Origin: Salinisphaera sp. | Lineage (GTDB): Bacteria; Pseudomonadota; Gammaproteobacteria; Nevskiales; Salinisphaeraceae | Direction: 5' to 3' | DNA length: 34,748 bases | Assembly: GCA_027858915.1 (NCBI GenBank) | Contig: JAQIBT010000060.1 | Coordinates: 1-34,748, forward strand | Shown: piece after piece, positions 23,206 to 34,469 of the stretch | Numbering within the stretch: the first letter of the stretch is position 1 | How the letters are laid out: each line of letters starts with the position of its first letter | Made by a program: the position numbers and the translations under genes | Notes under the pieces: generated by a model | The model's database searches: none | Told to the model about the DNA's origin: nothing | The model's input: only the letters and a program-made list of their open reading frames with translations

Positions 23206-24534
23206 CTAGTCTAGCTGGCTTGCCGGCGACAATCGTAGCCGATGCTTGGCGAAACGGTCTCCAGCGGCGCCAGTTGCCCCCACTCGGTTGCTGCGTGGGA
23301 CCACATCGTGAATCGACGGTGTCGCCGAGAGCTGACTGGTATGAGACGACGTTGAGCGCGACGAGACTTCATCGTGTGACGTGTGAGCCGGCTTTTTTTG
23401 CTGGCGTTTTCCGGCTTTGCCATTGCTGGTGATATCGATATCCACCTCAACCATCATCCCCGGCGCCAGCAGCGGTTTCGGGCCGTGGTCGATGGCGATA
23501 CGTACGGGGATCCGCTGCGTGATCTTGGTGAAATTGCCCGACGGGTTGGGATCGGGCAGCAAGGCGAACTGATTGGTGGCCGCGTCGCCAATTACCTGCA
23601 CATGGCCGCTGTAATGGGTATCGGGGCGGGCATCCACGCTGATCTGCACCGGCTGGCCGACGAGCAGATCGTGGACCTTGGTCTCCTTCATCTTGGCCGC
23701 GATCCAGACATCGTCTGGATCGTGCATCATCACGATCGGCTGGCCGGCCGAGACATATTCGTCCTGCTCGATAAAGGTCTTGTCGACCACGCCCTTGATC
23801 GGGCTGCGTACTGCCAGGTCATCGATCATGTTCTGCTGGTGTGCCAGTTCGGCGTGGGCCACCTTGAGCTGGCTTTTCAGAACATTCGGATTGGTAATCT
23901 GTCCGCCTGGCAACAGCCCTGTGTGCGCGTTGGCAATCGCTATCTTGTCGGTGTCGACCTGCGTCTGTGCCCGCTGGTAGTCGGCCTGGGCCGATTGATA
24001 GTCGAAGCGATAGATATCGCGCTGCTTCTGGGTGCCGCCGTGTGCCTTGTACAGATTCTCGGCGCGTCGATAGTTGTCCTGTGCCTTGTCCATGCGTGCC
24101 TTGGCCGCGTGCATGCCTGCCATATCGGCCGCCAGCATCGACTGGGTCTGGCGCACGCCGCCGCCGATCTGCTTTTGTGCCAGGTCCAGTCGGGTCTGGA
24201 TGTCCGCGATACGCGCCTTGAGTTGATCGAGCTTCAATCTGTCGGGTTGGCTGTAGAGCTGTGCGATCAGCTGGTGATTCTTCAGCTGGTCGCCCTCGAT
24301 CAGATTAAACCCGGTCACGCGGCCGTCCAGTCGGCTGCTGATCGTGATCACGTGGCTGGCCACCTGTGCATCCTTGCCGCTGACGTGGGTCATCCGGTGA
24401 TACAGCCAGAACGCCAGCCAGACAACCACCAGCAGCGAGACCACGACGATCGCGGTCAGCTTGAAGGGATGCCGGCGTGGTTTTGCCCGCTGATGCGTTT
24501 TTTTAGAAGTGTCTTCTTGTGTATGTTCGGCCAT
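23206..24534 (-). CDS. EmrA/HlyD-type membrane fusion protein
   Basis: 442 aa. A basic cytoplasmic N-terminus leads into one membrane anchor (residues 26-46). Then come the first lipoyl half (ISSRLDGRVTGFNLIEGDQL), a long alpha-helical hairpin with many Q, A and K (about 95-235), the second half (LAVRSPIKGVVDKTFIEQDE), and the barrel domain ending PLLAPGMMVEVDIDI. This is the EmrA periplasmic adaptor layout. The C-terminal 70 residues after ITSNGKAGK are a serine/histidine-rich tail absent from EmrA. It lies 24 bases behind the MFS gene on the same strand. It probably links that pump to a TolC-type outer membrane channel. No tolC-like gene is here. Confidence 0.9.
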   Translation of the reverse strand: MAEHTQEDTSKKTHQRAKPRRHPFKLTAIVVVSLLVVVWLAFWLYHRMTHVSGKDAQVASHVITISSRLDGRVTGFNLIEGDQLKNHQLIAQLYSQPDRLKLDQLKARIADIQTRLDLAQKQIGGGVRQTQSMLAADMAGMHAAKARMDKAQDNYRRAENLYKAHGGTQKQRDIYRFDYQSAQADYQRAQTQVDTDKIAIANAHTGLLPGGQITNPNVLKSQLKVAHAELAHQQNMIDDLAVRSPIKGVVDKTFIEQDEYVSAGQPIVMMHDPDDVWIAAKMKETKVHDLLVGQPVQISVDARPDTHYSGHVQVIGDAATNQFALLPDPNPSGNFTKITQRIPVRIAIDHGPKPLLAPGMMVEVDIDITSNGKAGKRQQKKPAHTSHDEVSSRSTSSHTSQLSATPSIHDVVPRSNRVGATGAAGDRFAKHRLRLSPASQLD

Positions 24535-24558: not shown

Positions 24559-26154
24559 TCAGCTGGTCGATTCGGCGCTGCGGCTCGGAGCACGAGCCTT
24601 GCCCGCGTCTGCCTTCTGGCCCCAGTAGCTGAGCAGATAGGACGGAATACAGACCAGCGCAAGCCCGCCGGCAACCATCAGGAAGCAATCCTGATAGGCA
24701 TAAATAGTGGCCCAGGTGGCATCGATTCGGGACAGCAGGTCGACTGCGGCGGCATGCTGATTGACCGCGCTCGTGCCGGTGCGCGCCACCACGGTCTCGA
24801 GGTGGCGCATCGTCTCCCGCGCCATGGGATTGCCCGAGTTCAGGCCCTGGGTCAGTTGATGGCTGTGCACCATGGTGCGGCGGTCGATCATCGCGACCAG
24901 GATGACCGTGCCGAACGCACCGCCCAGCTGCAGCGCAAAGTTGATTGCACCAGAGCCATAGCCGATCAGGCGCGGCGGCAGCGAGGCGATCGAGCGCGCC
25001 AGCGTCGGCGGGGGCACCGAGGCCATGGCGGTCGCCAGCAGTGACATCGACAGTGCCAATGAGAAGAACGAGGTATTCCAGTCAGCCTGGCCGAAGCGCC
25101 AGGTCGCATAGGTGGCAATGCACAACGCTGGTACGCTGATCCAGTGCGGCGGTATCCGATCGCCGAACTTGCCGACCAGCGGCACCAGCACCGCCAGCAC
25201 CACGGTCGACGGCGTGAACAGAACGCCTGAGGTGATCGGGCTGTAATCCAGAATCGCGTCCATGAACTGCGGCAGCAGATACATCACGCCGTAGAACGCG
25301 CCGCCGAACAGGAACAGCACGATCGACCCGGCCAGAAACTCCTTGGCCTTGAAGATATCCAGATCCAGCAGCGGGCGCGGCTGACGACGCTCCCAGAAGA
25401 TGAAAAACACCGTGCCGACAATCGAGACCGCCTCCAGAATCAGGATAGTGCTGTTGTTCCAGCCCCAGCGCTGGCCGTTGGCAATAGCGGCCAGCAGGGC
25501 AAAGATCGCCACAAACAGCACCACGGCGCCGATCCAGTCGAGCTTTGGGCGTGGGCCGGTTTCCTCGCGTTCGGGCAGAAACATAGAGCCCATCACGATC
25601 GCGATCACGCAGACCGGTAATACGACATAGAACACATAGCGCCAATCGAAATGATCTACCAGATAACCGCCCACCACCGACGCCAGGGTCAACGGCAAGC
25701 CCAGACTCATTCCATAGATCGCCGTGGCTAGGCCGCGTTTTTCTGGCGGATAGACAGAGAACAGGGCTTCCAGGGCTACCGGCCGGATCACCCCCGTCAT
25801 CGCCCCCTGAATCACCCGCGCCGCGACGATCATGCTCATGCCGGAAGCGACGCCGCCAAGCAGGGACGCGCCGATGAACACCACCAGCAAGCCGATATAT
25901 GTGCGTCGCTGGCCGAACGCCGAGATCAGCCATGGCGCGATCAGCAGGCTGACCGTGGTCGCCGCCAGAAAGCCGGTCGAAAGCCACTGCACCTGATCTG
26001 CGCTCATGCCGAACGCGCCTTTGATATAAGGCGTAGCGACGTTGACGATGGTAATCGACATGCCAAGCGCTACCAGGCCGAGCAGTACCGTGACCGTAAC
26101 CAGCCATCGATACTTCGGCCCATAGCGCTCGAACATGGCCTCGACCTGAGTCAT
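24559..26154 (-). CDS. DHA2-family MFS multidrug transporter (EmrB-like)
   Basis: 531 aa from ATG 26154; TTG 26205 would add 17 polar residues. Fourteen membrane helices are visible, with the DHA2/EmrB signatures SITIVNVATPYIKGAFG in helix 1, WLSTGFLAATTVSLLIAPWL, FGQRRTYIGLLVVFIGASLL (motif A), ARVIQGAMTGVIRPVALEAL (motif C region) and GMSLGLPLTLASVVGGYLVD. Such pumps expel lipophilic toxic compounds with proton antiport and usually partner an EmrA adaptor. Here the pump gene comes first and the adaptor second, the reverse of E. coli emrAB. No regulator gene is adjacent; the promoter would be in 26155-26503, back-to-back with cyoA. Confidence 0.93.
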   Translation of the reverse strand: MTQVEAMFERYGPKYRWLVTVTVLLGLVALGMSITIVNVATPYIKGAFGMSADQVQWLSTGFLAATTVSLLIAPWLISAFGQRRTYIGLLVVFIGASLLGGVASGMSMIVAARVIQGAMTGVIRPVALEALFSVYPPEKRGLATAIYGMSLGLPLTLASVVGGYLVDHFDWRYVFYVVLPVCVIAIVMGSMFLPEREETGPRPKLDWIGAVVLFVAIFALLAAIANGQRWGWNNSTILILEAVSIVGTVFFIFWERRQPRPLLDLDIFKAKEFLAGSIVLFLFGGAFYGVMYLLPQFMDAILDYSPITSGVLFTPSTVVLAVLVPLVGKFGDRIPPHWISVPALCIATYATWRFGQADWNTSFFSLALSMSLLATAMASVPPPTLARSIASLPPRLIGYGSGAINFALQLGGAFGTVILVAMIDRRTMVHSHQLTQGLNSGNPMARETMRHLETVVARTGTSAVNQHAAAVDLLSRIDATWATIYAYQDCFLMVAGGLALVCIPSYLLSYWGQKADAGKARAPSRSAESTS

Positions 26155-26433
26155 TGGGCTCACCGGAGCGACGGATTCTGCAGATTTGCGTGCACCATAC
26201 AGCAAGATATCGCTGCGCGCCCCCCCCGCGGTTATAGGAAGCCGTCGGGATCAAGCGATCGCAGCGAGCCAGGCGAGAGTTGGCCTTGAGTCCGACAGCC
26301 CGTGTGGTGAGTCAGGCGTTGGACAGGCGGGGCCCCAAGTGAAATTTATACTACCAAATCATATTCTTCTGTTCTCTCAGAGACGTGCCGCACCGTTCCG
26401 TAGATACGCCATAGGTAGGCCGTACACCACTGC

Positions 26434-26447
26434 TTGATATAAATCAA
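26434..26447. promoter_or_regulatory. FNR/ANR box upstream of cyoA
   Basis: TTGATATAAATCAA matches the FNR consensus TTGAT-N4-ATCAA in every specified position and is nearly fully symmetric. Its centre (26440.5) lies about 41.5 bases before the start expected from the -10 at 26470-26475, the class II activator position. FNR/ANR is the oxygen-sensing regulator of gammaproteobacteria; activation at low oxygen is inferred. Confidence 0.75.
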
Positions 26448-26469
26448 TTGATATGCCGAGCGGCTGGGC

Positions 26470-26475
26470 TATATT
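26470..26475 (+). promoter_or_regulatory. Candidate -10 element of the cyoA promoter
   Basis: TATATT followed by AAAAGC; no good -35 hexamer precedes it, as expected at class II FNR-activated promoters. The rest of 26155-26433 has no gene. Confidence 0.5.
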
Positions 26476-26503
26476 AAAAGCAAGTCAGTCAAAGGAGGTC
26501 GCC

Positions 26504-27457
26504 ATGAAATGCCGCAGTGCGGTGGACCGGGGCCTTGGCATACGAAGCCGTCGCCGCGGACTTTTGCCCGTAGGCTTTGTGCTGCTGCTGGGCGGTTGCA
26601 GCCTGGATAGCGTAACCGCATTTTTTCCGGCTGGCGTGGTGGGTGACCATCAACGGAACCTGATGATCCTCACATTCGTGCTGATGCTGTTTGTGTTTAT
26701 CCCAGTCGTCACGCTGACGCTGTTCTTTGCCTGGCGCTATCGACTGTCGAATTCCAACGCCCGTTACACGCCGCGTTGGTCGGAATCGATGCTAGTGGAG
26801 ATTTTCCTGTGGGGCGGCCCGGTCGTGATTGTCGCGATTCTGGCCGTTGTGACCTGGGTCTCCACTCACCAACTGGACCCCTACAGAACGATTACGGTCA
26901 AGGACAGGCAACCGATCGAGGTGGATGCGATCGCCTTGGATTGGAAGTGGCTGTTCGTTTATCCGCAGTACAACGTGGCTGCCGTTAATGAAATGGCGAT
27001 GCCGGTCAATACGCCGGTGAGCATCCATCTGACGTCGGATACGGTGATGACCTCCTTCATGATCCCGCGTCTGGGCAGCCAGATATTTGCCATGTCGGGC
27101 ATGCAGACGCGTTTGCATCTGCTGCCCACAAAAACCGGCACGTTCTTCGGCAAGAACTATCAGTACAGCGGTGAGGGTTTTTCGCATATGACGTTCAATG
27201 CGATTTCCACCACCGAGCAGGGCTTCAAGGCGTGGGTTGCGCGGGCCAGGGTCTCTGGAAGTGCACTGGATGTCCCGCGCTACACAGAACTGGAAAAGCC
27301 CAGTGAAAATGCCGCCGTGCGCTACTACTCGCCGGTCAAGCCGAATCTGTTCGCTCATGTGATCCAGCAATACCACAGTGGAAAGCCGCACAACCCTGTT
27401 ACCCCTGCACAAAAGCACGATGGCCCGCATGAAATCGCAGTGAGTGAGAGCCGCTGA
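26504..27457 (+). CDS. cyoA: Ubiquinol oxidase (bo3-type) subunit II
   Basis: 317 aa. ATG 26504 has AAAGGAGGT at ideal spacing; an upstream in-frame ATG (26453) lies in the promoter and is rejected. Residues 1-32 are a lipoprotein signal (LLLGGC, C32). Two membrane helices follow (about 48-72 and 93-117), then a cupredoxin-like periplasmic domain. CyoA-type features are DWKWLFVYP, SFMIPRLGSQIFAMSGMQ, LHLLP and YQYSGEGFSHM. The two cysteines that hold CuA in cytochrome c oxidases are absent, so this is a quinol oxidase subunit. It is 41 bases upstream of cyoB and behind an FNR box. Confidence 0.94.
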   Translation: MKCRSAVDRGLGIRSRRRGLLPVGFVLLLGGCSLDSVTAFFPAGVVGDHQRNLMILTFVLMLFVFIPVVTLTLFFAWRYRLSNSNARYTPRWSESMLVEIFLWGGPVVIVAILAVVTWVSTHQLDPYRTITVKDRQPIEVDAIALDWKWLFVYPQYNVAAVNEMAMPVNTPVSIHLTSDTVMTSFMIPRLGSQIFAMSGMQTRLHLLPTKTGTFFGKNYQYSGEGFSHMTFNAISTTEQGFKAWVARARVSGSALDVPRYTELEKPSENAAVRYYSPVKPNLFAHVIQQYHSGKPHNPVTPAQKHDGPHEIAVSESR

Positions 27458-27498
27458 AGGCGCAGGCGCGTGATTCGGTAGATTGATCGGAGGACGCC

Positions 27499-29568
27499 AT
27501 GTTCGGGAAATTAACACTGCAGTCCGTGCCCTACGACAACCCGATCATCATGTTTGCCGTGGGTCTGATGATCGTCACAGGCGCGGTTGTTGTTGGCGCC
27601 ACGACTTATTATGGCCTGTGGGGCTATCTCTATCGCGAGTGGTTGACCAGCGTTGATCACAAGAAGATAGGCGTGATGTATATCATCCTCGCGTTCGTGT
27701 TCCTGCTCAGGGGATTCGTGGACGCCTTGATGATGCGTGCGCAGCAGGCCTCGGCCGGGCCAGGTCACAGCGGCTACCTGCCCCCCGATCACTTCGCCGA
27801 GCTGTTTTCAGGCCACGGTACGATGATGATCATCTTCGTTGCCATGCCGTTCCTGATCGGCTTGATCAACGTGGCGGTACCGCTTCAAATCGGCGCCCGG
27901 GATGTCGCGTTTCCGTTCCTGAACTCGATCAGCCTTTGGCTGACGTACGCGGCCGGGATGCTGGTCATGGCGTCGCTCGCCGTCGGGCAGTTTTCGACCG
28001 CCGGCTGGAGCGGCTACACTCCGTATTCGGGCATTGCGGCCAATCCGAATACTGGCGTGGACTACTGGATCTGGGCCATGCAGATTTCGGGTATTGGCAC
28101 CACGCTGACCGGCATCAATTTCTTTGTGACCATCATCAAGGAGAGAGCGCCCGGCATGACGTGGATGCGCCTGCCCATATTCACCTGGACCGCGTTCGTC
28201 ACGACTATTCTGATCATTCTGGCTTTTCCTGCGTTAACGGTTGCGCTGGGCCTGTTGACCCTGGATCGCTATGCCGACATGCATTTCTTCACGGCCGACA
28301 TGGGCGGCAACCAGATGATGTTCATCAATATGTTCTGGATCTGGGGCCATCCGGAAGTCTATATCGTCATTTTGCCGGCATTTGGAATATTTTCCGAGGT
28401 CACGGCTACCTATTGCAACAAGCGCCTGTTCGGCTACAAGACCATGGTGTACGCCACGATCGTGATTGCGCTGCTGTCCTTCACGGTCTGGGTCCATCAT
28501 TTCTTCACGATGGGGCAGGGCCCGGACCGCAATGCCATATTCGGGATCGCGTCGATGCTGATCGGCATTCCCACCGGCGTGAAGATATATAACTGGATGG
28601 CGACCATGTTCCGGGGACGGATCGAATTCAAGGTGCCGATGATCTGGACTATCGGCTTCATCATCCTGTTCACGATCGGCGGGATGTCCGGTGTGCTGCT
28701 GGCCATCCCCGGTATCGACTACAAGGTGCACAACAGCGAATTTCTGGTGGCGCATTTCCATAATGTGCTGATACCGGGCACGATTTTCGGTGTGTTTGCC
28801 GGCTACCAGTACTGGTTTCCCAAGGCATTCGGTTTTCGGCTGGATGAGAAATGGGGCCGTCGTGCGTTCTGGGGCTGGGCCGTCGGTTTTGTGGTCGCGT
28901 TCATGCCGCTGTACGTCCTGGGGCTGATGGGTATGCCGCGGCGTATGGTCAGCTACTCCAATCCGGCCTGGCAGCCGCTGCTGATCGTCGCTGCCGTTGG
29001 CGCGTTGATCATCCTGTTCGGGGTGATCAGCCAGATCACCCAGCTGCTGGTCAGCATCCGCGATCGCGAACGGCTAGCGGATATGACCGGCGATCCCTGG
29101 GGCGGCCGTACGCTCGAATGGTCTACTTCCTCGCCACCGCCTTCCTACAACTTCGCGGTGATTCCCACGGTTGCGGCCCTGGATGCGTTTCGGGATATGA
29201 AGGATAGAGGCATCGCTTACGACCGACCGGAGGAATACCACGACATTGAGATGCCCAGGAGCACGCCGGCGGGCCTGGTGATCGGCATCGCTGCGTTTGT
29301 CTTTGGTTTTGCCTTCATATGGCATATCTGGTGGCTCGTCGCCGTCGCTGCGCTTGCCATGCTCGTCACGGTGATCTGGCGCGGCTGCAACGAGGATACC
29401 GAGTTCACGATACCGGCTGCCGAGGTCAAGAGAACGGAGGACGCGCGTTTCCGCCGCCTGGCGGATGCACGTTTGCGAACCGATCTGATGGATACAGGAT
29501 CTTGGGGACGGGTTGATCCGCCACAATCAGTCGCTCTACCGGAACGCAAGGCTCGCATAGTTTCATAA
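27499..29568 (+). CDS. cyoB: Ubiquinol oxidase (bo3-type) subunit I
   Basis: 689 aa, ATG 27499 with GGAGG upstream. It is the haem-copper core that oxidises quinol, reduces oxygen to water and pumps protons across the inner membrane. Landmarks fall at the same numbers as in E. coli CyoB: H106 (low-spin haem, in SGHG), D135 (D-channel entry), E286 and H284-Y288 in WGHPEVY (CuB, cross-linked Tyr), H333-H334 in WVHHFF (CuB), K362 in PTGVKIYNW (K-channel), H419 and H421 in VAHFHNV. Quinone-site residues R71, D75 and H98 are kept, but position 101 is Glu, not Gln. The gene is intact. No cyoC, cyoD or cyoE follows. Confidence 0.96.
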
Positions 29569-29942
29569 GCCGTTGAAGCTTGAGGAAAGGGCGTTGTTCT
29601 GTGCGCAAGCTGACCCAGCATCTTTCCTTGTTTCGTGCTTGGGGCTCGATTACGCGGTTCCGTTTGCGATGGCCGTCACTGTGAATCATCTTCGACGCCA
29701 GCGCAGTGGACGGCACGTCGCACCGGTACATCTCGATCAATCAGACATCGACAAAGTCGTTTACCCACGGACCAATGTGCAGTGATGCGACTAACGGAGA
29801 GTAACCGCGCCCCGGTGCGCTAATCTAGACTCTGGCCGGACGGTGATTGATCCGACGGATCAATAACAAGACCGTCAGGTCTATGAGATGCAACACATAG
29901 CCATCTGGGGCAAGCCGAGAGCGATAGGGGGCAATGGTTGCG
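29569..29942. other. 374-base spacer between cyoB and the ABC operon
   Basis: No gene is evident. The stretch carries the palindrome at 29846-29864 and, at 29874-29884, another copy of GTCAGGTCTAT seen near the left end of the window. There is no clear terminator after cyoB (GGAAAG and CTTTCC at 29583-29628 could pair across about 35 bases, without a U-run). Confidence 0.5.
29846..29864. promoter_or_regulatory. Perfect 19-base palindrome before the ABC transporter operon
   Basis: ATTGATCCG, A, CGGATCAAT reads identically on both strands. It is nested in a second, outer inverted repeat, GACGGT (29839-29844) and ACCGTC (29871-29876). It ends about 80 bases before the livG-type start codon. This is a likely operator for the operon's regulator; the T-N11-A spacing would suit a LysR type but other dimeric regulators fit as well. 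No regulator gene is adjacent. Confidence 0.55.
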
Positions 29943-30698
29943 ATGAGTGAGGCTATCCTGCAGGCGAGGGGGCTGCGAAAGACGTTCGCGGGCTTCACTG
30001 CGGTCAGCGATATCGATCTGGATGTCGCCCGTGGCAGCATCCATGCACTGATTGGCCCGAACGGCGCCGGTAAAACCACGGTGTTCAATCTGTTGACGCG
30101 GTTCATCTCGCCGTCGGCGGGTCGTATCGTCTATGACGGTATCGATATCACCCGAGACAAGCCCACCGTCATTGCCCGGCGGGGCATGGTGCGGTCGTTT
30201 CAGATCTCCGCAATATTTCCGCATCTGAGCGTACTGGACAACGTGCAGGTTGCGCTCCAACGCCATCTGGGCCTGTCGTATCACTTCTGGCGATCGGCGC
30301 GCGTGCTGGGTTCGCTGAATGAGCAGGCGATGACGTTGCTCGACGAGGTGGGTCTGGCCGATTTTGCGGATACGCTGAGCGTCGAACTGGCCTATGGGCG
30401 CAAACGCGCGCTGGAGATCGCCACTACTTTGGCGCTGGCACCGCGCCTGATGCTGCTCGACGAGCCGACCCAGGGCATGGGCGCCGAGGACGTCGGCCGG
30501 GTGACCGATCTGATTCGAAAAGTAGCGGCCGATCGCACCATCCTGATGGTCGAGCACAACCTGAACGTGGTCGCGTCGCTGGCCGACACCATCACGGTGC
30601 TTAATCGCGGCGAGATTCTGGCGGCGGGCTCTTACGACGTGGTCTCGCAGGATCCGGCGGTCATGGAAGCCTATATGGGTACAACGGCCGATGCCTGA
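29943..30698 (+). CDS. Branched-chain amino acid-type ABC transporter ATPase (LivG-like)
   Basis: 251 aa from ATG 29943; ATG 29934 is only two bases from the G-run ribosome binding site. Walker A is GPNGAGKT (38-45), Q-loop GMVRSFQIS, signature LAYGRKRALEIA (a C-loop of LivG form), Walker B LMLLDEPTQGMG and the switch histidine MVEHNL. The HAAT family imports branched-chain or other amino acids, urea or aromatic/dicarboxylic acids, with paired LivG and LivF ATPases. Here the ATPase gene leads and the operon runs G-F-K-H-M. It overlaps the next gene by eight bases. Confidence 0.9.
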   Translation: MSEAILQARGLRKTFAGFTAVSDIDLDVARGSIHALIGPNGAGKTTVFNLLTRFISPSAGRIVYDGIDITRDKPTVIARRGMVRSFQISAIFPHLSVLDNVQVALQRHLGLSYHFWRSARVLGSLNEQAMTLLDEVGLADFADTLSVELAYGRKRALEIATTLALAPRLMLLDEPTQGMGAEDVGRVTDLIRKVAADRTILMVEHNLNVVASLADTITVLNRGEILAAGSYDVVSQDPAVMEAYMGTTADA

Positions 30699-31395
30699 AC
30701 TGCTGCGCATCCGTGATTTGAACGCCTGGTACGGCGAATCGCATGTCCTGCACGGCGTCGACATGGCGGTCAATGAGGGCGAGGTAGTGACGTTGCTCGG
30801 GCGCAACGGCGCCGGCCGCACGACCACGCTCAAATCCATTCTGGGGCTGGTCGACAAGCGCCGTGGGTCGATCCAGCTCGACGGCAGCGAAGTGATCAAC
30901 CGGCCCACGCACCGTATCGCAAGGCAGGGCCTGCTTGGCTACTGCCCAGAAGAACGGGGCATCTTCTCGCGGCTGAACGTAGATGAAAACCTCAATCTGC
31001 CGCCGCGCTTGAGTCGCCACGGCATGCCTGTCGAGGAAATCTACGCCATGTTTCCGAACCTGGCCGAACGGCGGCGCAGCCTGGGCACGCAACTATCGGG
31101 CGGTGAACAACAGATGCTGGCGATGGCGCGGATACTGCGGACCGGCGCACGGCTGCTGCTGCTCGATGAAATTACCGAGGGACTGGCCCCTGTGATCGTA
31201 AAGACCCTGGGCGAGACCATTCAGCAGATCAAGCAGCGCGGCCTGACCATTGTGCTGGTCGAGCAGAATTTCCATTTTGCCGCCCCGTTGGCCGATCGGC
31301 ACTACATCATGGAACACGGCCGAGTCGCCGAAGTGGTTGAAGCGGCCGACGTCGAGGCCAAAGAGGCGCATATCAAACGTCTTTTGAGTGTCTGA
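30691..31395 (+). CDS. ABC transporter ATPase (LivF-like) with Walker A Lys to Arg
   Basis: 234 aa. It starts inside the livG-like stop (overlap ATGCCTGA). Walker A reads GRNGAGRT (37-44), so the conserved lysine is Arg43. The signature is LSGGEQQMLAMAR, Walker B LLLLDEITEGLAP (I instead of P after DE) and the switch histidine is replaced by Q-N-F-H in LVEQNFHF. The rest is normal. Other LivF proteins with GRNGAGRT exist, as I recall it, so it may still work with the fully conserved LivG partner. It completes the ATPase pair; downstream is the binding protein, 33 bases away. Confidence 0.88.
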   Translation: MPELLRIRDLNAWYGESHVLHGVDMAVNEGEVVTLLGRNGAGRTTTLKSILGLVDKRRGSIQLDGSEVINRPTHRIARQGLLGYCPEERGIFSRLNVDENLNLPPRLSRHGMPVEEIYAMFPNLAERRRSLGTQLSGGEQQMLAMARILRTGARLLLLDEITEGLAPVIVKTLGETIQQIKQRGLTIVLVEQNFHFAAPLADRHYIMEHGRVAEVVEAADVEAKEAHIKRLLSV

Positions 31396-31428
31396 AATAA
31401 GAATCATCCTGGGAGGCAGGGGAAAACG

Positions 31429-32643
31429 ATGAAAAAAACATTACTTACCGCCGTATGTGCGGCCAGCGTGCTGGCGTTTTCGAGCGCAAACGCCGCACAG
31501 GATTTATCCAACGGTGACGTCAAGATTGGCGTATTGACAGATATGTCCGGCGTCTACAAGGCGCTCGAAGGACCGGGAGCGGTCACCGCCGCGCGCATGG
31601 CGATTGACGATTTCGGCGGCAGCGTATTGGGTAAGAAGATCGAGCTGATCTCGGCCGATCACCAGGAAAAGCCGGACGTCGCGTCGTCGATCGCCCGCAA
31701 GTGGATCGATCAGGAGCACGTCGACATGCTGGTTGGCATGGACAATTCGGCGGTGGGGCTGGCGGTGCAGGGTCTGGCCTCGGCCAAGCACACCATCACC
31801 ATCAATACCGGCGCGGGTTCCACCGCACTCACTGAGGATCAGTGCAGCAAGTACGGTATTCATTATGTCTACGACACCCATGCCCTGCCGGTCGGAACAG
31901 CGACTGCGATCGTCAAGAACGGTGGCAAGAGCTGGTTCTTCATCACCGCTGATTATGCCTTCGGCCATTCGCTGCGGGACAACACATCGGCGATCGTGAA
32001 ATCGCTGGGCGGCACGGTGGTCGGCGATGTCGAAGCGCCCCTGGGCACGTCGGATTTCTCGTCTTACCTGCTGCAGGCCAGCAGCTCCGGCGCAGACGTG
32101 ATTGCCCTGGCCAACGCCGGCGGAGACACGGTTAACGCAGTCAAGCAGGCCCATTCGTTCGGGATTGTGTCGCGCGGACAGGAGCTCGCCGGCATGCTGG
32201 TGTTTCTGACCGACGTCAAGGCGCTCGGACTGAAAACCGCAAAAGGCCTCGAATTTACGACCGCGTTTTACTGGGACCGGGACAAGGCATCACGCGAATG
32301 GTCCAAGCGCTTCTTCAAGCAACACGGCGCCATGCCAACCATGGTTCAGGCGGGTGTCTATTCCGCGGTCACGCATTACCTGCAGGCCGTCAAGGCTGCG
32401 GGCACCGACAATTCGGATGCGGTCAGGGCACAGCTGGGCAAGATGACGCTCAACGATTTCTTTGTGCACGACGGGCATATCGAGGCGAATGGACTGATGG
32501 CTCACGATATGTATCTGGTGAAGGTCAAGTCGCCCGAGCAATCGCACGGTGACTGGGATCTGCTGAAAGTCGTTAGTACGATTCCCGCCAAAAAAGCCTA
32601 TATTCCGATATCCCAGAGCGCCTGCCCGCTGCTCAAGCATTAA
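31429..32643 (+). CDS. ABC transporter periplasmic substrate-binding protein (LivK-like)
   Basis: 404 aa; ATG 31429 with GGAGG upstream. Signal peptide 1-22 ends ANA. The mature part is a two-lobe periplasmic binding protein (Peripla_BP_6): DVKIGVLTDMSGVYKALEGP, ARMAIDDFGGSVLGKKIELI, ADHQEKPDVASSIARKWID, VDMLVGMDNSAVGLAVQGLA and the hinge TADYAFGHSLRDNTSAIVK. The pattern NKPD/EKPD..S..ARKW.D belongs to a subgroup often found with aromatic or other organic-acid degradation genes, not only with amino acids. The ligand is uncertain. It binds the substrate in the periplasm and docks on the permeases encoded next. Confidence 0.9.
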   Translation: MKKTLLTAVCAASVLAFSSANAAQDLSNGDVKIGVLTDMSGVYKALEGPGAVTAARMAIDDFGGSVLGKKIELISADHQEKPDVASSIARKWIDQEHVDMLVGMDNSAVGLAVQGLASAKHTITINTGAGSTALTEDQCSKYGIHYVYDTHALPVGTATAIVKNGGKSWFFITADYAFGHSLRDNTSAIVKSLGGTVVGDVEAPLGTSDFSSYLLQASSSGADVIALANAGGDTVNAVKQAHSFGIVSRGQELAGMLVFLTDVKALGLKTAKGLEFTTAFYWDRDKASREWSKRFFKQHGAMPTMVQAGVYSAVTHYLQAVKAAGTDNSDAVRAQLGKMTLNDFFVHDGHIEANGLMAHDMYLVKVKSPEQSHGDWDLLKVVSTIPAKKAYIPISQSACPLLKH

Positions 32644-32649
32644 CGCCTT

Positions 32650-33555
32650 ATGCATCTCAACGTCATTCTGGCGCAGACCATGCTCGGGCTGAGCGCAGGC
32701 GTGTTCTACGCCATGCTCAGCCTGGGGCTGGCGATCATCTTCGGTCTGCTCAACGTGATCAACTTTGCCCACGGCGCGCTCTACATGCTGGGCGCATTCG
32801 TGGCGTTGATTGGCTATTCCTATATTGGGCCCTGGCTCGGCTACGACGATTTTCATCTGGGGTTCTGGTGGGCACTGATCGTTGCCCCGGTCGTGGTGGG
32901 CTGTTTCGGCATGCTCATCGAGCGCTTCATGCTGCGACGGCTCTATCAGTTCGATCATATCTACGGGCTGTTGCTGACGTTTGGCATCGCCCTGATCCTG
33001 CAAGGGCTGATGTCGCGTTACTTCAATGTGTCCGGCACGGCATACGGGGGGCAGCCGGATAGTCTGAGCGGAATCGTGAATCTCGGCTTCATGTATTTCC
33101 CCACCTACCGGCTGTTCGCAATCGTGGTCTCGATCATCGTGTGCGTTGTCACCTGGTTTGTGATCGAACGGACTTCGCTGGGCGCGGTATTGCGGGCGGG
33201 TGTCGAAAACCCCAGGCTGGTGGAGGCGTTCGGTATCAACGTGCCGCGCCTGATCACGCTGACGTTCGGCTTTGGCGTCGGCCTTGCCGCACTCGCCGGC
33301 GTGCTGGCCGCGCCTATCTACTCGGTCAGCCCGCTGATGGGGGCGAATCTGATCATTACCGTCTTTGCCGTGGTGGTAATCGGCGGCATGGGCTCGATTG
33401 GGGGCGCCATCGTCACAGGCCTGGCGCTGGGCCTGGTCCAGGGCCTCACCCAGGCGCTGTATCCGCCGGCCTCCGAGACCGTGATCTTCTTCATCATGGT
33501 GATCGTATTGCTGATTCGCCCGGCCGGTCTATTCGGCAAGGACACCGCATCATGA
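32650..33555 (+). CDS. ABC transporter permease, LivH family
   Basis: 301 aa, eight or so membrane helices. Family features are GLSAGVFYAMLSLGLAIIFG, NVINFAHGALYMLGAF, LRRLYQFDHIYGLLLTFGIA and the cytoplasmic loop with RAGVENPRLVEAFGINVPRL (the EAA-like coupling loop), then VVVIGGMGSIGGAIVTGL. It forms half of the membrane channel. The start codon is six bases after the livK stop with no clear ribosome binding site, so translation is coupled; it overlaps livM by four bases. Confidence 0.93.
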   Translation: MHLNVILAQTMLGLSAGVFYAMLSLGLAIIFGLLNVINFAHGALYMLGAFVALIGYSYIGPWLGYDDFHLGFWWALIVAPVVVGCFGMLIERFMLRRLYQFDHIYGLLLTFGIALILQGLMSRYFNVSGTAYGGQPDSLSGIVNLGFMYFPTYRLFAIVVSIIVCVVTWFVIERTSLGAVLRAGVENPRLVEAFGINVPRLITLTFGFGVGLAALAGVLAAPIYSVSPLMGANLIITVFAVVVIGGMGSIGGAIVTGLALGLVQGLTQALYPPASETVIFFIMVIVLLIRPAGLFGKDTAS

Positions 33556-34469
33556 ACCGCGTTTTCTGGGTGTTGTTGCTGGGCCTGGGCCTGGCGGCGC
33601 CGTATCTGGTGTATCCGGTGTTTGCGATGAAGCTGTTGTGCTTCGCGCTGTTCGCCTGTGCGTTCAATCTGCTGCTCGGCTATGCCGGGCTGCTGTCCTT
33701 TGGCCATGCGGCTTTTTTCGGCGGTGCGGCTTATATCACCGGCTACGTGGTCAAGGCATTTGGTTTTTCGCCGCTGCTCGGCATACTTGTCGGCACGTTG
33801 TTCGCCATGGTGCTGGGCGCAATTTTCGGCGTGCTGGCTATTCGTCGCCAGGGCATCTATTTTGCGATGATCACGCTGGCGCTGGCCCAGATCGTGTTGT
33901 TCTTTGCGCTGAAGCTGCCGTTTACCGGCGGCGAGAACGGCCTGCAGGGGATTCCGCGCGGCCATTTGCTGGGCGTGTTCGATCTCAATCAGCCGCTGGT
34001 GATGTATTACACGGTATTTGCGATCTTCATGGTCGGATTTCTGATCATCTATCGCACCATCCACTCGCCTTTTGGCCAGATATTGACGGCAATCCGTGAA
34101 AACGAGCCGCGCGCCCGTTCGCTGGGCTACGACGTCGAACGCTTCAAGCTGCTCGCCTTCGTCATTTCCGCCACTCTGGCCGGCACAGCCGGCTCCACCA
34201 AGGCCATCGTGTTCCAGTTTGCCTCGTTGACCGACGTGCATTGGCAGACCTCCGGCGAAGTGGTGCTGATGACGCTGCTAGGCGGTATGGGAACGCTGTT
34301 CGGCCCGATCACCGGCGCCTTGGTCGTGGTAACGATGGAGGAGGAACTGGCCGCCTTCGGATCCTGGGTGGAGGTGGCCATCGGCGCGATTTTCGTGGTC
34401 TGCGTATTGCTGTTCCGGCGCGGCTTCGTCGGCGAACTCGCGCGTTGGCTGCGTGCGGATGCTTCGTAA
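33552..34469 (+). CDS. ABC transporter permease, LivM family
   Basis: 305 aa from ATG 33552, overlapping the livH stop (ATGA). An in-frame region reaching back to 33141 is antisense-free but lies in another frame of livH and is not used. The membrane helices begin VFWVLLLGLGLAAPYLVYPV; then NLLLGYAGLLSFGHAAFFGG, RRQGIYFAMITLALAQIV, FTGGENGLQGIPRG, IRENEPRARSLGYDVERFKL (coupling loop) and LLGGMGTLFGPITGALVVV are LivM marks. It pairs with LivH as the channel. No terminator is obvious after it. Confidence 0.93.
   Translation: MNRVFWVLLLGLGLAAPYLVYPVFAMKLLCFALFACAFNLLLGYAGLLSFGHAAFFGGAAYITGYVVKAFGFSPLLGILVGTLFAMVLGAIFGVLAIRRQGIYFAMITLALAQIVLFFALKLPFTGGENGLQGIPRGHLLGVFDLNQPLVMYYTVFAIFMVGFLIIYRTIHSPFGQILTAIRENEPRARSLGYDVERFKLLAFVISATLAGTAGSTKAIVFQFASLTDVHWQTSGEVVLMTLLGGMGTLFGPITGALVVVTMEEELAAFGSWVEVAIGAIFVVCVLLFRRGFVGELARWLRADAS

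Follow-up and report, generated by a model that had tools for sequence, protein, structure and literature searches.

The bo3 quinol oxidase of Escherichia coli (CyoABCD; PDB 1fft, 7n9z) serves here as the point of comparison for a locus that encodes only its two core subunits. An earlier note on this DNA held that bo3 oxidases elsewhere are usually the high-oxygen enzyme and are repressed by FNR/ANR, but this contrast proves too sharp against the available portions of two papers. Rhizobium etli raises its Cyo expression when oxygen is low and depends on the enzyme there (PMC4274787), and in Sphingopyxis granuli most of the cyoABCD-surF1-regBA operon is anaerobically induced and the operon is named among those lowered in an fnr mutant (PMC7713065). 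In Burkholderia cenocepacia, the accessible text reports that the cyo genes are hardly expressed in the conditions tested and that deletion of anr has no effect (PMC11742914). Because a low-oxygen Cyo already has precedents in Rhizobium etli and Sphingopyxis, what is new at the present locus is its two-gene form and the geometry of its promoter. The Rhizobium etli system is like the role that we propose in being a Cyo-type quinol oxidase of low oxygen, but it is a full cyoABCD and the part of the paper at hand describes no FNR-box promoter of such a kind (PMC4274787). The Sphingopyxis operon also differs in being full and, as far as the available text goes, in having its predicted Fnr sites inside the operon (PMC7713065). 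Among the matches listed (titles, beginnings of abstracts and open PMC papers), no paper dealt with a cyoAB pair lacking the other cyo genes, and none described a cyo promoter with a class II FNR site.

The window, that is, the whole stretch of 34,748 nucleotides that was analysed (contig C88), carries on its forward strand cyoA (26504..27457; quinol oxidase subunit II, 317 aa, with COX2 and aromatic-rich COX_ARM domains) and cyoB (27499..29568; quinol oxidase subunit I, 689 aa). Both reading frames are intact, as had been read from the sequence before, and each is preceded by a ribosome-binding site. The proteins score above the cut-offs of their NCBIfam families, CyoA with 298 bits against 266 (TIGR01433) and CyoB narrowly, with 1025.6 bits against 1020.35 (TIGR02843). 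CyoA thus has the COX2 fold and the aromatic-rich C-terminus of a bo3-type subunit II, and its lipobox reads LLGGC by eye. The likely start of cyoA is the ATG at 26504, just downstream of a Shine-Dalgarno-like AAGGAGG read from the sequence (26492..26498, forward strand). Position 26453, which lies upstream of the putative transcription start, is not the likely start of cyoA.

CyoB aligns with E. coli CyoB (1fft_A) without a gap over residues 1-660. In a 24-row alignment that sets the window copy beside its relatives, R71, D75, H98, H106, N124, D135, N142, H284, E286, Y288, H333, H334, K362, H411, H419, H421, R481 and R482 (E. coli numbering) are identical in all 24. From their roles in E. coli, we take these positions to be the haem and CuB ligands, Tyr288, Glu286 and the D- and K-channel residues, together with R71, D75 and H98; the haem/CuB histidines, Tyr288, Glu286 and channel residues of a bo3-type CyoB are all in place. 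Position 101, presumably a quinol-site residue, is E in the window copy and Q in E. coli, and since E is found in 15 of the 24 rows it is not special to the window protein. The earlier statement that all catalytic residues of CyoB match E. coli therefore holds for the ligand, channel and R71/D75/H98 positions but fails at position 101. Taken as a whole, the locus is like E. coli bo3 in its gapless CyoB, its COX_ARM-bearing CyoA and the retained ligand and channel residues, and unlike it in lacking cyoC, cyoD and cyoE, in E101 (common to the relatives) and in having an FNR box at an activator position. An AlphaFold2 model of CyoB made without an alignment had a mean pLDDT of 44 and was set aside.

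The absence of cyoC, cyoD and cyoE downstream, claimed before, is confirmed. The 365 bases 3' of cyoB (29569..29933, forward strand), where cyoC and cyoD would be expected, lead directly to an ABC transporter cluster whose first frame reads by eye as an ABC transporter ATPase. A tblastn search found no cyoC or cyoD remnant in the window, the lone match of low E-value being an artefact of a query whose reading frame had mistakenly been run on across cyoB, and cyoE is absent from the vicinity of cyoAB. The bo3-type operon with cyoC and cyoD is thus not found at this locus; both genes are present elsewhere in the genome. As cyoAB lies inside the 34.7-kb contig, 5.2 kb from the nearer end, truncation of the contig does not explain the missing genes. 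An assembly break was rejected because the emrB-emrA block of the same contig matches nine genomes of the genus, and a contaminant contig was rejected on the strength of the same block and of a third-position GC content (GC3) like that of another cyo copy in the genome, on contig C167.

To place the two-gene form, CyoB and CyoC were searched in samples of 369 genomes of the class and 398 of the phylum, with matches listed at or above about 820 bits, up to three candidates scored per genome and the matches paired by position. Among the matches listed, cyoC lies within 1.5 kb downstream in 196 of 197 CyoB-type genes (159 genomes), the window being the sole exception, and the cyoB-cyoC gaps of the 196 paired loci measure 72-458 b. 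In all 13 other genomes of the genus, and in genome G014 of a related genus (g2), the best CyoB match belongs to an operon that also contains cyoC and cyoD. Both genes also follow cyoB in each of the 80 loci kept from 130 relatives (named genomes, mostly Pseudomonas). The earlier note had suggested that a CyoB tree might reveal a clade of two-gene loci; no such clade was seen in our sample, where the window is a single case beside G014, whose CyoB is the nearest (76% identical) and belongs to a full cyoABCD operon. In a search of plasmids, the best CyoB was about 61% identical, among 919 records with a match. In the class survey, the cyoC match that follows an open cyoB in genome G377 is split into two parts (G377:C1, about 371609-372149), and one of them has an in-frame stop, possibly through loss of cyoC or through sequencing error.

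A search of the genome for cyo genes, proposed in the earlier note, found complete cyoABCD sets on C167 and C33 and a haem O synthase on C94. The COX1 family has five genes, on C88 (the window), C167, C33, C119 and C19. The CyoB and CyoA encoded on C167 are 74% and 50% identical to the window copies, and the low value for CyoA indicates that the two enzymes have diverged. The C33 operon is more distant from the window copy than that of C167. A further cyoAB on C119 (L123) is cut inside cyoB by the contig end, and the COX1 search found the rest of this cyoB on no other contig. The gene on C19 (L004) reads by eye as a cbb3-type ccoN with an adjoining ccoO; this contig measures 3.3 kb and has a transposase-like frame directly upstream of ccoN. 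Cytochrome bd subunit I is represented by two partial matches at contig ends, probably parts of one gene. Genes of the COX3 family are found on C33 and C167 only.

Three UbiA-family genes were found, on C94, C160 and C70, and the first two were scanned. The C94 gene is a haem O synthase (CyoE/CtaB; 319.5 bits, cut-off 210.3) and the C160 gene is UbiA. Next to the haem O synthase (L119) is a frame reading by eye as CtaA, although no CtaD-type cytochrome c oxidase turned up when the genome was searched for COX1. Given the CtaA-like frame, one of the quinol oxidases of this genome may use haem A, and the accessible part of one paper describes acidophiles with Cyo-like operons whose products may be haem A enzymes (PMC8239418). 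The window enzyme itself would have haem O, through the CyoE/CtaB on C94, or possibly haem A.

The window core appears to be constrained as a working gene and does not look like a dying one. CyoB has two changes at columns that are invariant across the 23 other aligned relatives. At columns invariant in 14 canonical copies of the genus and sister genus, the window has 8 changes, G014 18, C167 6, G001 2 and G003 0, and the window counts of 2 and 8 give no sign of relaxed CyoB positions. Between the window and C167, CyoB has a dN of 0.18 and a dS of 1.46, the latter near saturation, with a ratio of about 0.12, and CyoA has a dN/dS of about 0.19, with dS near or beyond saturation. These data bear on whether CyoAB works alone at low oxygen as a true two-subunit quinol oxidase, where slow turnover would perhaps make the loss of subunit III tolerable. 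Such an enzyme would fit the lack of adjoining cyoC and cyoD, seen in this one case among the 197 listed CyoB-type genes, and the available part of one paper describes subunits I and II of cytochrome c oxidases as the minimum functional unit, with every cofactor bound in them (PMC8361435). The same text records that many cytochrome c oxidases without subunit III lose activity during turnover. Matching cyoC and cyoD genes are moreover at hand in the C167 operon, and CyoB lacks the relaxed positions that release from subunits III and IV might leave. We regard an oxidase of two subunits as unlikely. In its fuller version, the core would be a stand-alone A-family quinol oxidase that FNR/ANR activates directly and that the cell produces at low oxygen alone; gene loss would have uncoupled it from subunits III and IV, and its place would have shifted from aerobic to oxygen-limited respiration. 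This version seems to us slightly less likely still.

Upstream of cyoA is a perfect FNR/ANR box, TTGATATAAATCAA (26434..26447, forward strand), an exact match to the pattern TTGATN4ATCAA. It abuts a -35-like TTGATA (26448..26453, forward strand), which is followed after a 16-bp spacer by a -10-like TATATT (26470..26475, forward strand) that starts 22 bp after the box and has one mismatch to TATAAT. We infer a transcription start at about 26482, seven bases after the -10 element, which puts the centre of the box (26440.5) at -41.5, so that the class II placement given in the earlier note stands, with this start. In E. coli, the activator of a class II promoter binds a site that runs partly into the -35 region, and fnr1 of Herbaspirillum offers a class II example centred at -42 (PMC5934665, available part). 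Because TTGATA-N16-TATATT is a good -35/-10 match, the promoter could fire without an activator. A strong basal sigma-70 promoter repressed by FNR, which is the usual aerobic regulation of bo3 oxidases, would account for the quality of these elements. The box, however, is placed as are the activator sites of class II promoters in the accessible text of the same paper (PMC5934665), and we hold repression to be hardly credible.

The genome has 19 exact FNR/ANR boxes against none for a reversed control pattern and about 1.2 expected from simple base composition. Several of the 19 lie inside reading frames, which means that an exact site is not always a promoter site. Of the others, one is next to an anr gene, one is next to a gene of the Crp family that we read as dnr-like, and one adjoins a gene resembling those for universal stress proteins (55.9 of 166 bits). 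On C21, a perfect box (L153, about 6415) stands between a long frame without a family match and an Iro-like gene (iron oxidase; weak, 63.6 of 100 bits), and a second box is found by ccmC. Twenty other cyo operons were scanned from 600 b upstream to 150 b inside cyoA (in G005 the scan covered about 130 b upstream), and not one has an exact or one-mismatch box. The G014 operon, which is like the window in having the nearest CyoA (60% identical) as well as the nearest CyoB, is unlike it in being complete and in having no box. The C167 operon differs from the window in carrying cyoC and cyoD and in lacking any exact or one-mismatch box in the 600 b before it; one site with a single mismatch is found farther off, about 1.3 kb upstream. 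In the stretches scanned, such boxes are also missing near the starts of the cbb3 gene (on C19, where the scan reached back about 830 b) and of cydA (C97).

Candidate regulators for such a box are encoded in the genome. Two FNR-type proteins, L141 (C78) and L142 (C31), have by eye the CX2C...C pattern plus an internal C, the four cysteines of an FNR-type regulator. Their best NCBIfam family is Fnr, with 142 and 124 bits, which is below the cut-off of 228 bits. The two are similar to each other, and each has a perfect FNR box nearby, at 54 b upstream for L141 (anr) and about 130 b past the end for L142. DNR-type NO-sensing regulators share the box consensus of ANR. The site upstream of cyoA might accordingly serve a DNR-type regulator that responds to nitric oxide, and cyoAB would then belong to a nitric-oxide or denitrification response and not to low oxygen as such. 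The Crp-family gene on C41 that we read as DNR-like has a perfect box beside it, which is in keeping with this possibility, although the gene falls below all NCBIfam cut-offs (best FtrB, 90.3 of 211 bits). With two FNR-type proteins of the four-cysteine pattern also in the genome, we consider control by a DNR-type protein improbable.

In the CyoB tree, the window copy is sister to that of G014 (100/100), which was flagged as a long branch, and stands apart from the C167 copy of its own genome. The fork joining the window and G014 to the C167 group has a support of 84/75. As the window CyoB groups with G014 and not with C167, a recent duplication of the C167 copy is an improbable origin; these relationships suggest that cyoAB is probably an old paralogue or a lateral gain from a relative, a matter that the CyoA tree does not decide.

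Beside cyoAB lies an emrB-type MFS exporter (24559..26205, reverse strand) with an emrA-like gene (23206-24534), the edge of a block conserved in nine genomes of the genus. A close emrB (71-79%) is found in 9 of the 13 other genus genomes searched; emrA follows it in all nine and an SDR gene in eight, the ninth stretch ending first. cyoAB lies just outside this block and is absent upstream of emrB in all eight genus genomes read over at least 7.6 kb (G001 was readable for 455 b only). A branched-chain-type ABC cluster (29934-34469) is, like cyoAB, not seen upstream of emrB in those eight genomes, which marks an insertion or rearrangement edge. With the emrB-emrA block syntenic and both cyoAB and the ABC cluster absent there, the two look inserted at the block edge.

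The single occurrence of the pair and its absence upstream of emrB in the eight readable genomes would suit a relic, a copy without cyoCD on its way out, whose box is a chance or hitch-hiking site. Against this stand the open frames and ribosome-binding sites, the low dN/dS, a GC3 like that of the C167 copy, the short end branch of CyoB (0.12, against 0.32 for its sister G014) and the correct spacing of a perfect box, and we judge a relic very improbable.

The reading that we favour as the simplest mechanism, and consider somewhat more probable than all others together, is that the window cyoAB is an FNR/ANR-activated core, a paralogue of the C167 cyoABCD that shares the CyoC and CyoD of that operon at low oxygen. 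On gene content and promoter layout, cyoA and cyoB would encode subunits II and I of an A-family quinol oxidase, which together make up a functional catalytic core. As oxygen falls, a regulator of the FNR/ANR type would bind the box at -41.5 and activate transcription in the class II manner. The core would assemble with the CyoC and CyoD subunits that the C167 operon supplies and receive its haem through CyoE/CtaB encoded on C94, and the outcome would be an oxidase that can be made as oxygen falls. Much of the earlier proposal, a second, low-oxygen variant that borrows subunits III and IV, is carried forward in this model. The full cyoABCD in the genome, the conserved CyoB, the FNR-type regulators and a box at the activator position that is not found at the other scanned cyo operons all speak for it, and activation and sharing are its predicted parts.

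With subunit III encoded beside subunit I in 196 of the 197 CyoB-type genes among the matches listed, the core-only paralogue of the window stands out. Being under heavy constraint and having a promoter of its own, of an oxygen-sensing type, it raises the questions of what purpose subunits III and IV serve and whether paralogous oxidases can share helper subunits. It also offers a case for how one operator may re-wire a nominally high-oxygen enzyme for low oxygen.
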